37,934 nucleotides of DNA from Pseudomonadota bacterium. Its GTDB lineage: Bacteria; Pseudomonadota; Gammaproteobacteria; Steroidobacterales; Steroidobacteraceae. The stretch spans positions 1 to 37,934 of the forward strand of contig JANYBG010000085.1 of the NCBI GenBank assembly GCA_025360865.1. Reading direction: 5' to 3'. A program made the position numbers and the translations under genes. Under the pieces are notes generated by a model that was not told where the DNA came from, made no database searches, and worked only from the letters and a program-made list of their open reading frames with translations. This document shows, piece by piece, positions 2 to 7,389 of the stretch (position 1 is its first letter; every line of letters starts with the position of its first letter).

Positions 2-2028
<2,027 letters not shown>

Positions 2029-2032
<4 letters not shown>

Positions 2033-3636
2033 TTGCGCAGGATCGCGGTCTCGATCTCCCACTCGACGCGGTTCTTGGATGTCGCCGAGCGGTTGACGGA
2101 CACCGGGCGCACGCGGCTTAGACCGGCGCGATGGGTAACGAGCCAGGTGTCGAAGGCGCCGGGCTTACTGGTGGCGAAGCCGAACAGCAGGTTGAACTTA
2201 CCCTCGGCGAGGGTCGAGGGCCGGTTGAGGCGCTCGTCGGCGATGACGAAGTGCGTCTCCTCGGCGGCGGCGCCAGCGAAGGCGCCCTGCTCGGCCAGGC
2301 CATCGAGGAACGCCTCAACCTGCGCCTGTGCGCGCTGCCACATGTCGGGGCCGTTGTGCTCAAGCAGCGTCCAACGAGTGCCCTGCTCGATGCTGGCGGC
2401 GACGAACAGCGCCAGCCGGCGCGCCGAGAGGTAGCGCCAGTCGGATACCCCGCTGCCGGAGAGCGTGCGTGGGCTGACGCCGGTGCGCACGCCACTGCGT
2501 ACCGAGAGGAAGGTGTTGATCCCGGCCGCCGCCAGCCGAGTGCGGTCCGCCTCGCTCACAACCACCGCGGGTCGCAGGCCCGGGCGCAGGATCGCCTCCT
2601 CGCTCTCCGCGGCCGCCCACACCGGCCAGGTCTCATCCGAGCGGGCGATCATCCCGGCGGCCGCCCCGCATGAGCTGAACACCTCGACCCGGCCCCGCAG
2701 CCGGTCGAAGGCCTGCACGCGCGGGTAATACATAACGGCGCTGTCGCTGCGGAAGGGCCACAGGCGCATCGCATCGAGCGCGATCCGCGCGGTGGTCCAG
2801 TTCGCCGGCGGGTCGACGACCAGGAGCGCATGACGCTCGCGGCACATGCGCGCGGCCACCAGCAGCGTGGAAAGGCCAACGTCGCGCTCGCGGGTCAGGG
2901 GCGGGATGCACAGCATGTTGAAGCCCTGCTCGCCATGCAGCGCGAACAGTCCCGTGGCGCTCGCCGCCGAGCCGATCACGTCGTAGTCCGTCAGCGGCGC
3001 GCCGTCATCCCCGTCCGGATTCGACAAGGTGTATCCGGCCGCCACCCCACCGGGGCCACCGGCGGTGCGGTCCGGCCGCAGGAGCGGCAACGCGCCCAGG
3101 GTCCGCACAAGGCGCGACTCGAGCAATACCTCGCGTACGCAGCGCGCGCTGCCCGCGGCGATGCATACCCGGCGGTAGATCTCCTGATCCTCGACCAGTT
3201 CGGAGCCGGCGGTGCGTACGCGCTGCACGACCAGGTTGAAGTGCTCGTTATCGGCGAGGATGAGCCCGTCGTAGTCGACCGAGGCGCGCAGGTACTCGCG
3301 GGAGCCCGCGTTGATGGCGGTCAGGCGTAGCGCGCCGGCGGCAGCCGGTAGCGTGAGCGTCGGCGGACGCGCGCCGTTGACGACGCGCACGATGCGCGCC
3401 TCGCGACCGCCATTCTCGAAGAACTGTTCCACGGCGTAGGAGAGCGTCGAGGGCTGCCAGAGGCCGCCGAAGCGCTGCTGGAACTCGACGAAGCCGCGCA
3501 CGGTGACGGCATGGTTAACCGGACCCTTGAGCGTGCGGCCCACGAAGGCAACGACGCCCGTCGGCACGCGCTCGATCGCATGCTCGGTGCGGCTGTGTTC
3601 TGCGAGTTGTACGCCGGACGCGGGGCTGTCTGCCAC
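2029..3636 (-). CDS. Orphan contractile-tail sheath protein
   Basis: This 535-residue protein resembles the sheath (FI) subunit of contractile phage tails and related injection systems. Residues ~26-85 carry the N-terminal sheath signature (PTGVVAFVGRTLKGPVN, SYAVEQFFENGG, RIVRVVNG). Residues ~395-500 match the conserved sheath C-domain (WRYLSARRLALFVAASIEQG, MWQRAQAQVEAFLDGL, KFNLLFGFATSKPGAF). Two features depart from phage sheaths: the N-terminal PGVYVEE-type strand is reduced to SGVQLAE, and ~35 residues (RVRPVSVNRSATSKNRVEWE and beyond) follow the point where sheaths usually end. The GTG start is chosen because AAAGAGG lies 7 bases upstream and a TGTTAGAAT extended -10 lies just before that. 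No tube, baseplate, spike, ATPase or lysis gene is in the window, so its role is unknown. Confidence 0.85.
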
Positions 3637-3850
3637 TCAAGCGCCTCTTTGAATTGGCCGGCGCGATTCTAACACAGCGACCCGGCGGGCGGTTGGCTTC
3701 CGGGTCGTGGAAATCTAGCGGCGCGGGGCGCGGCGACGCCTGCGCCTCCTCGGCTCTGCGTCCATCCTCCGCGCGCGCGCGCTCCAGCTCTTCCTGCTTG
3801 CGCGCGATCTCCGCGAGCATCAGCTGCAGCCACGGCGACAGCGCTGTCAT
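3515..3850 (-). CDS. Possible small coiled-coil ORF before the sheath gene (doubtful)
   Basis: The 111-codon frame starts 15 bases after the L,D-transpeptidase stop. Its first ~40 residues (WLQLMLAEIARKQEELERAR and on) look like a plausible amphipathic, charged helix. The last ~40 residues are Arg-rich and lie inside the sheath gene in another frame, with 122 bases of overlap, which looks like non-coding read-through. No good ribosome binding site precedes the ATG. Either it is a short real protein whose tail happens to run into the sheath gene, or it is a chance frame in GC-rich DNA. I recognise no family. Confidence 0.3.
   Translation of the reverse strand: MTALSPWLQLMLAEIARKQEELERARAEDGRRAEEAQASPRPAPLDFHDPEANRPPGRCVRIAPANSKRRLSGRQPRVRRTTRRTQPHRACDRARADGRRCLRGPHAQGSG
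3666..3674 (-). promoter_or_regulatory. Extended -10 promoter of the sheath gene
   Basis: Read on the minus strand this is TGT-TAGAAT, an extended -10 with five of six -10 bases matching consensus. It lies 29 bases before the GTG of the sheath gene, which would give a leader of about 23 bases containing AAAGAGG. No convincing -35 is visible, as is common for extended -10 promoters. It implies that the sheath can be expressed apart from the L,D-transpeptidase upstream. Confidence 0.5.
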
Positions 3851-3865
3851 ATGCGGCTCACGTGG

Positions 3866-5101
3866 TCAGCCACCGCTGTTGGGCGCCGGGCGCGCCTTGG
3901 CCGGCTGCGCCGGCGCGGCCGTTGGCGCCGCGGCCGGTGCGTCCGGCTTGGGTTCCGCGTCCGACATTATCTGCTTGAAGGTCGACTCATCCATCGGCAG
4001 GTCACTCTTGCCGTCCCAGCTGGAGTGCGCGGGAACCACGTTCTGCACGCGTACGGCGCTCGCGAGCACCTGGCCAAGGCTCGCGCCAGCGGCCGTGACC
4101 GGTACCGGCACCCCGTGAGGCTCCTGGCTCAGAGCGGTGACGAGGTCCCAGTGGATTTCCTCCTTCTGTTCCTTCAGGTCCCGCCGCAGGCGCGGGGCGA
4201 GTGACTTGGTGAGCAGCTTCTGCTGGCCCTTCTTCCAATCGCGCGCGTCGTCCTCGAGCACGTCATAGGGCTGCAGGTACAGCTGCCCTTCGTGCCAGCC
4301 CAGCGGGTACGGCTGGTTGACTACCCGCACCTGCGCGCCGACGGGGATCATGTTGAAGAACTGCTCGATGTCCTCCGGGTACAGCCGCATGCAGCCGTGG
4401 CTGGAGCGCAGGCCGACGCCTGATGGCTTGTTCGTGCCATGGATCAGGTAGCTCGGCCACTCCAAATAGAAAGCGTACCTGCCCAAGGGGTTGTCGGAAC
4501 CGGGACCGATCACCGGCTCCAGGTCCTCGCCGTTCTCATGATGTTCCTTGCGCACCGAGACCGGCACATGCCAGGTCGGATCCTTCTGGCGCCGCGTGAC
4601 CTTCGTAACGCCCTCGGGCGTGCGCCATCCCATCTTGCCGATGCCGATCGGGTGGGTGAAGACCACCTGCTTCTCGCCCTTCTTGGCGGGGGGGAAGTAG
4701 AAAATCCGCATCGCCGGTATGTTGATCACGAGACCCGTGCGCGGCGCCTCCGGCAGCACGAACTGCGAGGGTACGATCACCTCGGTGCCCTCACCGGGCA
4801 ACCACGCGTCGACCTTCGGGTTCGCGCGCACGATCTCCTGGTAGCCGACGTTGAAGCGCCGGGCTATGTCGGCCAGCGTGTCTTGCTTGGTGGCGCGCAC
4901 CACCTGAACCACACCAACCACGTCATCGCCGGGGTTGAGCTCGAAGCGCTGGTTAGCGACCGGCATCGGCACTTCCGGCGGTGGCGGGGGCGACGGCGGC
5001 GGTGGTGGCGGCCCCTTCCTGTGCTCACCAAAGATAGAACAGCCCGCGAGTGCGAGGCACAGCGCGACCGCGAAGGTGGCGCGGGAATTACGGGTCTTCA
5101 T
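3866..5101 (-). CDS. L,D-transpeptidase lipoprotein with LysM and YkuD domains
   Basis: Periplasmic enzyme of the ErfK/YbiS type, which forms 3-3 peptidoglycan cross-links or attaches proteins to peptidoglycan. The 411 residues hold a lipoprotein signal (LALAGC, Cys21), a proline run (31-42), a LysM-like region at ~62-110 (TKQDTLADIARRFNVGYQEI), the YkuD domain at ~122-263 with HGT (221) and SHGC (Cys237 as nucleophile), and a ~145-residue tail ending in an Ala/Pro-rich linker. The long tail is more than most family members have. No ribosome binding site is obvious, but CATAAT (5110-5115 read on the minus strand) lies 8 bases before the ATG, so a start close to the transcript end is possible. 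It is 49 bases downstream of the second TPM gene. Confidence 0.92.
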   Translation of the reverse strand: MKTRNSRATFAVALCLALAGCSIFGEHRKGPPPPPPSPPPPPEVPMPVANQRFELNPGDDVVGVVQVVRATKQDTLADIARRFNVGYQEIVRANPKVDAWLPGEGTEVIVPSQFVLPEAPRTGLVINIPAMRIFYFPPAKKGEKQVVFTHPIGIGKMGWRTPEGVTKVTRRQKDPTWHVPVSVRKEHHENGEDLEPVIGPGSDNPLGRYAFYLEWPSYLIHGTNKPSGVGLRSSHGCMRLYPEDIEQFFNMIPVGAQVRVVNQPYPLGWHEGQLYLQPYDVLEDDARDWKKGQQKLLTKSLAPRLRRDLKEQKEEIHWDLVTALSQEPHGVPVPVTAAGASLGQVLASAVRVQNVVPAHSSWDGKSDLPMDESTFKQIMSDAEPKPDAPAAAPTAAPAQPAKARPAPNSGG

Positions 5102-5150: not shown

Positions 5151-5645
5151 CTACAGGAGCACGGGCTGGTTCGGCAACTCGTTGTCGCTGCGGCGGGTGC
5201 CCGGAAAATGCCGCCCGAGCAGCGCGCCGACGGCGAGGATCCCCGCCACGGAGCCGTCCTGGAAGCGCCCCTCCCGATAGTGGTGCTCCATCTGCCGACA
5301 CACCGCCTGCCATTCCGTCTGGGGCACCTGGGCGGCGATACCCCGGTCGGCGACGATCTCGACGACATGGTCGGCCATCAGCACATAGATGAGGACGCCG
5401 TTGTTGTGCGCGGTGTCCCATACGCCAAACTGCCCGAAAATCTGCAGCGCGCGCTGGCGCGGCGCGAGGCGGCGCCAGACCTCCGGCACGTCGAATGAGG
5501 TCTCGATGACGAAGCGGATCTCGCCGCCGTGACGACCCTCGCACTCCCCGATCGCCTGCTCGATCGCATCGCGCACCGACTGCGGGAAGTGCCGGCGCGT
5601 GCTGTAACGCGTGGTCAGGATGTGGCGGATCGCGCGGGTAAGCAT
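5151..5645 (-). CDS. Cytosolic-looking TPM-domain protein
   Basis: This 164-residue protein contains a TPM fold (TPM/Psb32 family), seen as GEIRFVIETSFDVPEVWRRL, VWDTAHNNGVLIYVLMADH, VEIVADRGI and the end of the domain at about residue 145. It has no signal peptide, membrane segment or Gly-rich tail, unlike its neighbour. The ATG at 5645 is chosen because TAGGAG overlaps the stop of the upstream gene about 10 bases before it; the frame is open further upstream only through that gene's Gly-coding repeat. TPM proteins have been linked to photosystem repair, acid phosphatase activity and membrane protein quality control, but the role of this short class is not known. It forms a tight unit with the two genes before it. 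Confidence 0.85.
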   Translation of the reverse strand: MLTRAIRHILTTRYSTRRHFPQSVRDAIEQAIGECEGRHGGEIRFVIETSFDVPEVWRRLAPRQRALQIFGQFGVWDTAHNNGVLIYVLMADHVVEIVADRGIAAQVPQTEWQAVCRQMEHHYREGRFQDGSVAGILAVGALLGRHFPGTRRSDNELPNQPVLL

Positions 5646-5658
5646 CACGGGTGCACTC

Positions 5659-6543
5659 CTACCAGCCGCCCGAGGCGCCGCCGCCACTGAAGCCGCCGCC
5701 ACCGCCGCTGAAACCACCGCCACCACCGAAACCTCCGCCACCGAAGCCGCCACCCAGGCCGCCGCCGCGGCTGGACCAGGCGCTAGTACCACCGGCGAAG
5801 CCCATCAGCAGCGTGAAGAGGAATCCGGCCACACCGGCCACGCCCGCGAGGGCCAGCGCATAGCCGCCGAGGTACACAAGTCCGCCGGCGCCGGCGCCGG
5901 TGAGCGCCGCCCCCAGGGTACGGCCGAAGATCCTGCGCAGGAGCACCGACCCGAAGAGGATCGCGATGAGCAGCTGCGGAAAGGCGCCGGATCCATGGTG
6001 GCCCTGCTGCCAGGCCGGCTCGGGCGCAGGCAGCGCCTCCCCGTCGATGAGCTTGATCATCTGGTCGAGGCCGCCGTCGATCCCGGCGTAGTAGTTGCCC
6101 TCCTTGAAGGCGGGCCGGATGGTCTCGGAGATGATGCGGTTGGACATCGCATCGGTGAGCGCTCCTTCGAGTCCCTGGCCCACCTCGATGCGGATGCGTT
6201 TGTCGTCCTTGGCGATGATGAGCAACGCGCCGTCATCGACCTTCTTGCGGCCGAGCTTCCACTGCTCGACGACGCGGATCGAGTACTGCTCGATCTCCTC
6301 CGGCTGCGTGGTGGGCACGATCAGCACGGCCAGCTGCGAGCCCTTGGCGGACTCGAACGCGGCCAGTTTCTGCTCGAGCGCGCCCTGCTGCTCGGCGGTG
6401 AGCGTCCCGGTGAGATCGGTGACGCGCCCGGTCAGCTTGGGGATCGCCCGCAGGTCCTGGGCAGCGGCGCCCGCGCCGAGGCCCAGCAGCCACAGCAGGG
6501 CGAACCCGGCCAGCAGCGCCGCGCGCGGGAAGCCGCGGATCAT
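5659..6543 (-). CDS. YgcG-type TPM-domain membrane protein with Gly-rich tail
   Basis: The 294-residue protein has a signal peptide (1-29, cut near GAAAQD), a periplasmic TPM domain at ~36-168 (VTDLTGTLTAEQQGALEQKL, VDDGALLIIAKDDKRIRIEV, GLEGALTDA), hydrophobic segments at ~190-203 and ~222-249, and a Gly/Ser/Phe-rich C-terminus (259-294). This is the usual YgcG architecture. Its ATG overlaps the lemA stop by 4 bases (6540-6543), so the two are translationally coupled. LemA and YgcG-type genes are paired in many bacteria, but their joint function is not settled. Confidence 0.93.
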   Translation of the reverse strand: MIRGFPRAALLAGFALLWLLGLGAGAAAQDLRAIPKLTGRVTDLTGTLTAEQQGALEQKLAAFESAKGSQLAVLIVPTTQPEEIEQYSIRVVEQWKLGRKKVDDGALLIIAKDDKRIRIEVGQGLEGALTDAMSNRIISETIRPAFKEGNYYAGIDGGLDQMIKLIDGEALPAPEPAWQQGHHGSGAFPQLLIAILFGSVLLRRIFGRTLGAALTGAGAGGLVYLGGYALALAGVAGVAGFLFTLLMGFAGGTSAWSSRGGGLGGGFGGGGFGGGGGFSGGGGGFSGGGASGGW

Positions 6544-7181
6544 CGCGTGGCGGGCTGTCCCGAGGGCGCCGTCGCCGGGGCACCGGGCGTCGAGGTGTCA
6601 AAGCTCACCGTCGGCGCGGTGGAGATCTGCGCCTCGTTGGCGACCGTGAAGTTCGGCTTCACCTGGAAGCCGAACATCTTCGCCGTCAGGTTCACCGGGA
6701 ACTGGCGCACCGTCACGTTGTAGCTCTGCACCGCCTGGATGTAGCGGTTGCGCGCCACGGTCACGCGGTTCTCGGTGCCCTCGATCTGGGACTGCAGGTC
6801 GCGGAAGTTCTGGTCGGACTTCAGCTGCGGATAGTTCTCCGTCACCGCGAACAGGCTCTTCAGGGCACTGGTGAGCTGGTTCTGCGCGGCCTGGTACTTG
6901 GCGAACAGCTCGGGGTTGTTCAGTACCTCCGGCGTCACCTGGATGGAGCCGACCTTGGCGCGCGCCTCGGTCACCCCGATGAGCACCTTCTGCTCCTGGG
7001 CGGCATAGCCCTTGACCGTATTGACGAGGTTCGGGATCAGGTCAGCCCGGCGCTGATACTGGTTAACCACTTCCGACCAGGCGGCTTTGACGCCCTCGTC
7101 CTGGGTCTGCAGGTTGTTATAACCGCAACCCGAGAGGAACAGCACCGCGACGGCCAACAGGCCCACTGACCAAGCACGCAT
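6540..7181 (-). CDS. lemA: LemA family lipoprotein
   Basis: A 213-residue LemA-family protein, mostly long helices. The lipoprotein signal ends in LFLSGC (Cys19) and is followed by GYNNLQTQDEGVKAAWSEV, NQYQRRADLIPNLVNTVKGY, ENYPQLKSDQNFRDLQ and RNRYIQAVQSYN, all family hallmarks. The last ~25 residues are a Pro/Ala/Thr-rich tail. The ATG at 7181 is chosen over upstream codons in the same frame because AAGGAG lies 7 bases before it and the signal peptide begins there. It is the first gene of a run with the two TPM genes, and a promoter candidate lies at 7230-7258. The family's biochemical role is unknown. Confidence 0.93.
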   Translation of the reverse strand: MRAWSVGLLAVAVLFLSGCGYNNLQTQDEGVKAAWSEVVNQYQRRADLIPNLVNTVKGYAAQEQKVLIGVTEARAKVGSIQVTPEVLNNPELFAKYQAAQNQLTSALKSLFAVTENYPQLKSDQNFRDLQSQIEGTENRVTVARNRYIQAVQSYNVTVRQFPVNLTAKMFGFQVKPNFTVANEAQISTAPTVSFDTSTPGAPATAPSGQPATR

Positions 7182-7229
7182 CGAGCTTCTCCTTATGATT
7201 CGGCCCCCGCCCATGCCGGGGGGATGCGG

Positions 7230-7258
7230 ATTGTCACACGCAATGTAAAGCGCGTCGA
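7230..7258 (-). promoter_or_regulatory. Candidate promoter of the lemA operon
   Basis: On the minus strand TCGACG (-35, 7253-7258) is followed after 17 bases by GACAAT (-10, 7230-7235), which is itself preceded by TGT, giving an extended -10. Each hexamer matches consensus at four of six positions. It lies about 50 bases before the lemA ATG. The rest of 7182-7360 is G/C homopolymer-rich and I see no other feature in it. Confidence 0.4.
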
Positions 7259-7359
7259 TTCCCGCCCCGGGAGGCCCCCGGCTGGGGGGGGTGGGCCCGC
7301 CGCGGCGCGGCAGGTGGGGGTTCGGGGGCCGGGCGCGCCTGTCCCGCCGGGCCGCGGCC

Positions 7360-7389
7360 AAAAAAAACCCCAGGGGATTAGCCTGGGGT
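7360..7389 (-). terminator. Rho-independent terminator of the 68-residue gene
   Basis: On the minus strand a perfect 7-bp stem (CCCCAGG / CCTGGGG, loop CTAATCC) is followed by a run of eight T. It stands about 50 bases past the stop of the small gene at 7440-7646, and it also insulates the lemA operon that follows on the same strand. Confidence 0.85.

Follow-up and report, generated by a model that had tools for sequence, protein, structure and literature searches.

To our knowledge, contractile sheaths have been described only as components of tails and of injection machines. In the known sheaths, arms link neighbouring subunits. The type VI secretion sheath is contractile, belongs to the same broad superfamily and is made of two proteins; its system has an Hcp tube, whereas the genome studied here has no Hcp match. 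As described in PMC10066040, the sheath protein Cis2 (8bky, 8bl4, 9gts), from the cytoplasmic CIS of Streptomyces coelicolor, contracts and works with the tube Cis1a. In the same account, domains 1 and 2 build its wall, domain 3 on the surface is flexible and was not resolved, and N-terminal linker insertions favour the extended state. The best Foldseek match of the protein described below (E 2e-29) was 9ezm, the sheath of Halogeometricum borinquense in its contracted state; this sheath belongs to an archaeal contractile system whose tube gene lies directly downstream according to PMC11566945. The nearest sequence relatives found outside the order (Steroidobacterales) are eCIS-type sheaths of Ensifer/Rhizobium megaplasmids and of other Gammaproteobacteria, the best of which share about 31-39% identity with it over most of its length.

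The stretch of DNA analysed (the window, 37,934 nucleotides) carries on its reverse strand an intact ORF of 535 amino acids (2029-3636, stop codon at 2029-2031) with the contractile-sheath fold. Structure comparison places this fold across residues 12-492, along most of the chain, while the Pfam scores remain below the curated cut-offs (26.7 bits against 31.4 for PF04984; 20.5 against 26.9 for PF17482). The N-terminal arm (residues 7-22; 3571-3618, reverse strand) has lost the canonical PGVYxEE motif, and the C-terminal arm (residues 481-504; 2125-2196, reverse strand) has lost KPAEFV; 8bky, in contrast, shows both PGVYVEE and KPAEFV. Between the arms lie the N-terminal core and surface domain (residues 35-260; 2857-3534, reverse strand) and the C-terminal domain (residues 261-480; 2197-2856, reverse strand). 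Unlike its described relatives, this sheath has no tube: of the eCIS-type loci examined, both plasmid ones and 14 of 15 chromosomal ones pair their sheath with an adjacent gp19-type tube ORF, and none is present at the window locus or beside the other orphan sheaths.

Searches of the window's own genome, a draft of 257 contigs that is 96.4% complete, gave no match to the tube PF06841, Baseplate_J, GPW_gp25, Hcp, Phage_tube PF04985 or the Pvc16_N cap, so that the tube, baseplate and cap genes of an eCIS or CIS and the Hcp tube of a type VI secretion system were all missing from the results. Four of the six families matched in named control genomes. PF06841 and PF14065 matched in none of 14 control genomes and did match in relatives such as G005, G042 and G044; Phage_tube PF04985, taken as the mark of a P2-type phage tail or tailocin, was found in 0 of 60 genomes, as against 2 of the 14 controls. 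No AAA+ ATPase, spike or tape measure gene was present among the ten window neighbours scanned. The earlier note's description of a contractile-tail sheath protein with no other tail gene is thus borne out by the sheath fold and the empty six-family search.

The same combination recurs among relatives. Of 36 relatives from the window's genus, 35 carry the sheath, the sole exception (G009) being 63% complete, and only G005 has a tube match, on the same contig as a second sheath of 35% identity. Baseplate_J was found in three of the 36 (G005, G012 and G014), gp25 in five and Hcp in six; five genomes combine gp25 and Hcp on a single contig, as a type VI system would. The window's genome is not among any of these. 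Across the order, where genomes at least 85% complete were surveyed and at most four sheath candidates scored in each, the sheath matched in 257 of 311 genomes (194 of 232 among those of best quality), usually as one copy. The comparison across related genomes that the earlier note had suggested speaks for conservation. Matches reached E 2e-40 or better in 254 genomes; the weak ones in G044, G051 and G144 may be other sheaths or fragments. A tube match was obtained in 13 of the 311 genomes, 11 of these being strong sheath carriers, which leaves 243 of the 254 with no tube match. Six one-contig genomes (G074, G085, G087, G155, G218 and G323) have the sheath and no tube match, and no tube-like ORF was seen near the orphan sheaths of loci L001-L067 and L117-L136, with flanks of under 1.5 to about 10 kb. 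A few order genomes (G005, G042 and G044) hold fuller contractile systems. The sheath is dispensable in genus g39 (G229-G246), since 16 of its 18 genomes, among those listed, show none; these sheathless genomes measure 1.8-2.8 Mb, and the two with a sheath 4.3 and 3.6 Mb.

To compare constraint along the protein, 15 tube-associated sheaths supplied a reference set of residues that are at least 85% invariant among them, and the retention of these residues was scored in 26 orphan rows of family f1, to which related-locus rows were assigned by sequence identity, and in 15 other orphans. Retention (f1, other orphans) was 0.18 and 0.25 in the N-terminal arm, 0.53 and 0.44 in residues 23-34, 0.88 and 0.77 in residues 35-91, 0.82 and 0.77 in residues 92-186, 0.78 and 0.70 in residues 187-260, 0.49 and 0.43 in residues 261-392, 0.42 and 0.40 in residues 393-459, 0.34 and 0.40 in residues 460-480, and 0.34 and 0.38 in the C-terminal arm. 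The N-terminal core and the surface domain, the latter probably including residues 92-186, are thus the orphans' most constrained part, whereas the C-terminal domain has lost over half of its canonical invariant residues and the arms lack the conservation seen in eCIS and CIS sheaths. Twelve control sheaths (eleven diverged tube-associated ones, several sharing loci, and L121) were nearly flat, with retention of 0.50-0.70 throughout; ten of them come from the 12 eCIS-type sheath ORFs of L158-L167, from which L163 and a cut-off second ORF of L159 were left out. The core-minus-arm difference averaged 0.51 (0.27 to 0.67) in the 41 orphans, as compared with 0.04 (-0.20 to 0.31) in the controls and -0.02 in the reference set, so that the control range touches the orphan range, and four of the 12 controls lean clearly the orphan way (L166b at 0.31, L159a, L165b and L161b). 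A rank test between orphans and controls gave p 1e-7, a value that overstates independence because the rows are related.

Within-group conservation followed the same inverted course. Near-invariant columns made up 75% of the N-terminal arm and 67% of the C-terminal arm in canonical, tube-associated sheaths, as against 0% (0 of 16 columns reaching 90%) and 4% (1 of 24) in f1 orphans, while the surface domain rose from 9% to 35%; it is the pattern rather than the level that counts here, since the groups differ in diversity. Some residues are newly conserved in the orphans, and their arms keep their length with few gaps. Because arms and C-terminal domain have lost canonical residues while the core and surface domain have kept theirs, ordinary contraction is unlikely, and judging from these alignments the orphan sheath has likely lost it. 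Arm sequence can, on the other hand, change without loss of assembly.

When 61 sheaths were placed in a quick maximum-likelihood tree, a single branch set apart 41 orphans, which come from ten families (SH-aLRT 99.8; support values are SH-aLRT, with no bootstrap). The rows were drawn from 138 loci with a sheath ORF, leaving out near-copies and partial copies as well as L151 and L157 (internal stops) and L156; L068-L070 are in the tree and not in the constraint reference sets. Rows of f1, f2, f7 and f11 each cluster together, and L122, L117 and L136 have long end branches. One tubeless sheath, L121, falls among the eCIS sheaths, though a topology uniting all 42 tubeless sheaths was not rejected (p-AU 0.774). 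A search of 370 genomes of the class gave sheath matches in 50, five of which belong to the order; a tube-like ORF adjoins the sheath in 14 of 15 out-of-order loci (L141, L143-L145 and L147-L157), the exception, L156, being a weak partial match. Since there is one orphan clade, carriage is order-wide and a tube lies beside 14 of 15 outside sheaths, the sheath was probably domesticated once. A nearby phage or plasmid origin was considered and rejected: phage records gave one weak match, the three matches in viral contigs (L112-L114) all have a tube ORF, and so do both loci inspected (L115-L116) among the 74 matching plasmid records.

The neighbourhood is also kept. Upstream of the sheath gene lie a LysM and YkuD L,D-transpeptidase gene (3866-5101) and a block of two TPM-domain genes and LemA (5151-7361), all on the reverse strand, and downstream a convergent hydantoinase B/oxoprolinase gene (50-2032, forward strand). 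Among the window and 32 other loci, LysM-YkuD is near the sheath in 31, the TPM genes in 28 and 25 and LemA in 25; in families further removed, the sheath frequently has hydantoinase, transporter and YkuD genes nearby. This kept synteny agrees with the one orphan clade. By a simple counting method, dN/dS of the sheath was 0.117 against L002 and 0.16-0.30 against four other copies, within the range of YkuD, TPM, LemA and saccharopine dehydrogenase. The sheath is under purifying selection, and we have little doubt that it derives from an injection-system sheath that was domesticated and vertically inherited.

An extended -10 element, TGTGTTAGAAT, lies before the gene (3666-3676, reverse strand; TAGAAT at 3666-3671). 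The sequence TGTGYTAGARTC, read as this element, was kept in all 11 of the close upstream sequences that formed the alignment, while its flanks vary. AGAGG (3644-3648, reverse strand), 7 nt before the GTG, is the likely ribosome binding site. No -35/-10 promoter pair was found before the sheath gene.

The interval that separates the YkuD gene from the sheath gene holds a short ORF (EWLQLMLAEIARKREE and the like) for a predicted helical microprotein of about 50 amino acids. The ORF in the window (3515-3850, reverse strand; core at 3740-3841) has no stop before the sheath gene, extends to 111 amino acids and overlaps the beginning of the sheath gene in a different frame; most copies in relatives end after about 40-60 amino acids. 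Divergence is of the coding type, with a median dN/dS of 0.265 over 171 pairs and most variation at third codon positions. The copy of L005 was modelled as one helix (residues 2-41), which says little alone. The microprotein profile matched in 104 of the 311 order genomes, all of them sheath-positive (hypergeometric 2e-11, which ignores kinship and so overstates independence). Among the 108 matches, 81 could be placed, being in genomes with a sheath position among those listed, and 78 of these lie upstream of the sheath on its contig and strand, 52 within 300 nt, 23 within 1,300 nt and three further off, up to 5 kb; the other three are weaker second matches on another contig. No match at E 0.01 was obtained in 207 of the 311 genomes, which indicates that the microprotein is not an obligate partner; these 207 include 21 of the 36 genomes of the window's genus, a total of 36 that counts the window's own genome. 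None of the 18 g39 genomes has a match. Where it is present, this placement and co-occurrence make the microprotein a reasonably likely partner of the sheath.

No known family was convincing for the microprotein (best single-member E 0.009 in PHROGs and 0.091 in NCBIfam; no Pfam match at 0.001 for the window ORF). It was also considered as a general eCIS part and was found in none of 29 tube-bearing loci, 14 of which have only about 1.5 kb of flank. In L134 (3185-3283), where it is nearly 5 kb from the sheath, and in L135 (10266-10418), the microprotein gene borders on the end of an Abhydrolase_10-type gene (scanned in L135 only). These two loci belong to different families, and the microprotein gene is therefore linked to more than just the sheath.

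On balance we favour, for the locus as a whole, a non-contractile cytoplasmic sheath-fold protein that would act with the microprotein where that is present. The sheath gene of an injection system would have been captured once, in or before the ancestor of the order, would have lost tube and baseplate, and would since have resided in the chromosome, generally in one copy, under a promoter of its own. Its arms and C-terminal domain, freed from their old constraint, would no longer weave a contractile sheath round a tube; the protein would instead work in the cytoplasm, as a monomer or a small ring, and would dock a partner through its N-terminal core and surface domain, most plausibly the helical microprotein where present. 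The broader proposal, that the fold has been turned into a non-tail device (a tubeless protein with non-working arms that forms a new kind of cytoplasmic assembly or adaptor, with the microprotein in many lineages, and is encoded by a near-core gene of the order), is possible, though we would not expect it to hold in full. Linkage to the L,D-transpeptidase gene makes the cell envelope the likeliest place of action; this is a weak step, and an envelope role, drawn from linkage alone, is doubtful.

The earlier note had left open whether the protein was domesticated, a filament-former or the companion of a tail system encoded at some other place in the genome, and order-wide conservation, a single clade, purifying selection and the lack of tube and baseplate matches uphold the first. 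Sheath-like filaments or polysheaths, serving without a tube as a cytoskeletal or storage structure, would agree with a fold that spans residues 12-492, arms of preserved length and a strongly conserved N-terminal core; both arms, however, are among the orphans' least conserved regions, which weakens the idea of a filament and makes it unlikely. A sheath core without working arms could also cap a growing sheath, and the fuller systems of a few order genomes (the three named above) would offer targets to such a decoy or poison subunit against resident or incoming contractile systems or phage tails. We regard this as very improbable, as nearly all strong carriers have no tube match, the gene sits at a kept locus among housekeeping genes, and injection systems are not known to be assembled inside their target.

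A partner tail elsewhere is not supported, since six families have no match in the genome and a tube match is so rare in the order. Tube and baseplate might have diverged beyond the reach of the searches or be missing from the assembly of a 257-contig draft; the six one-contig genomes, however, show the sheath without a tube match too, orphan loci have no tube-like ORF in their flanks, and a real injection system with a hidden tube is close to refuted. Nor did the six families reveal in this genome a tail system missing its own sheath, which the earlier note had named as contrary evidence together with disabling mutations in relatives; the 35 same-genus copies contain no internal stops, those of G013, G031 and G033 being partial or split at contig ends. 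Decay of a prophage or injection system could account for the diverged arms and C-terminal domain and for the missing sheath in most listed genomes of the small-genome genus g39. For the order as a whole a decaying remnant is nevertheless refuted by the presence, throughout ten families, of what is mostly a single full-length copy with an open frame, by dN/dS values of 0.12-0.30 within the neighbours' range, by newly conserved residues and by a conserved promoter element; recent decay was likewise rejected on dN/dS and order-wide open frames. The domesticated, non-contractile protein is the reading that we retain.

New here are the inverted constraint, the upstream microprotein and the invariant extended -10 element. 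A literature search, with most subscription journals and all preprints outside its reach, returned no paper on a lone conserved sheath. Injection-system surveys can overlook lone sheath genes; one, as described in PMC8213781, set a minimum of four linked genes that had to bear three different annotations. If the present reading is true, a sheath inherited across an order without its machine and arm motifs would exemplify the reuse of the sheath fold for another purpose and would tell the sheath parts that serve contraction from those that do not, with the microprotein as an immediate, testable partner candidate.

Some further features were observed. The surface domain of the window protein (residues 96-171) has a weak NCBIfam match to the UrcA family (TIGR04433, E 0.016, 15.3 of 25 bits). 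The sheath of L121 (7688-9208, G056:C3) is the second in its genome, the other being of the orphan type. It clusters with the eCIS sheaths and has retained the arm motifs, yet there is no tube ORF within the 17 kb of its locus and no PF06841 match in its genome, and it is possibly a more recent orphan sheath. A glutaredoxin-DUF3429-type gene sits between microprotein and sheath in three f2 loci (L125, L126 and L135), and in L135 (9486-10262; f2) and L118 (9291-9947; f11) the gene immediately upstream of the orphan sheath combines a glutaredoxin-like part with DUF3429.
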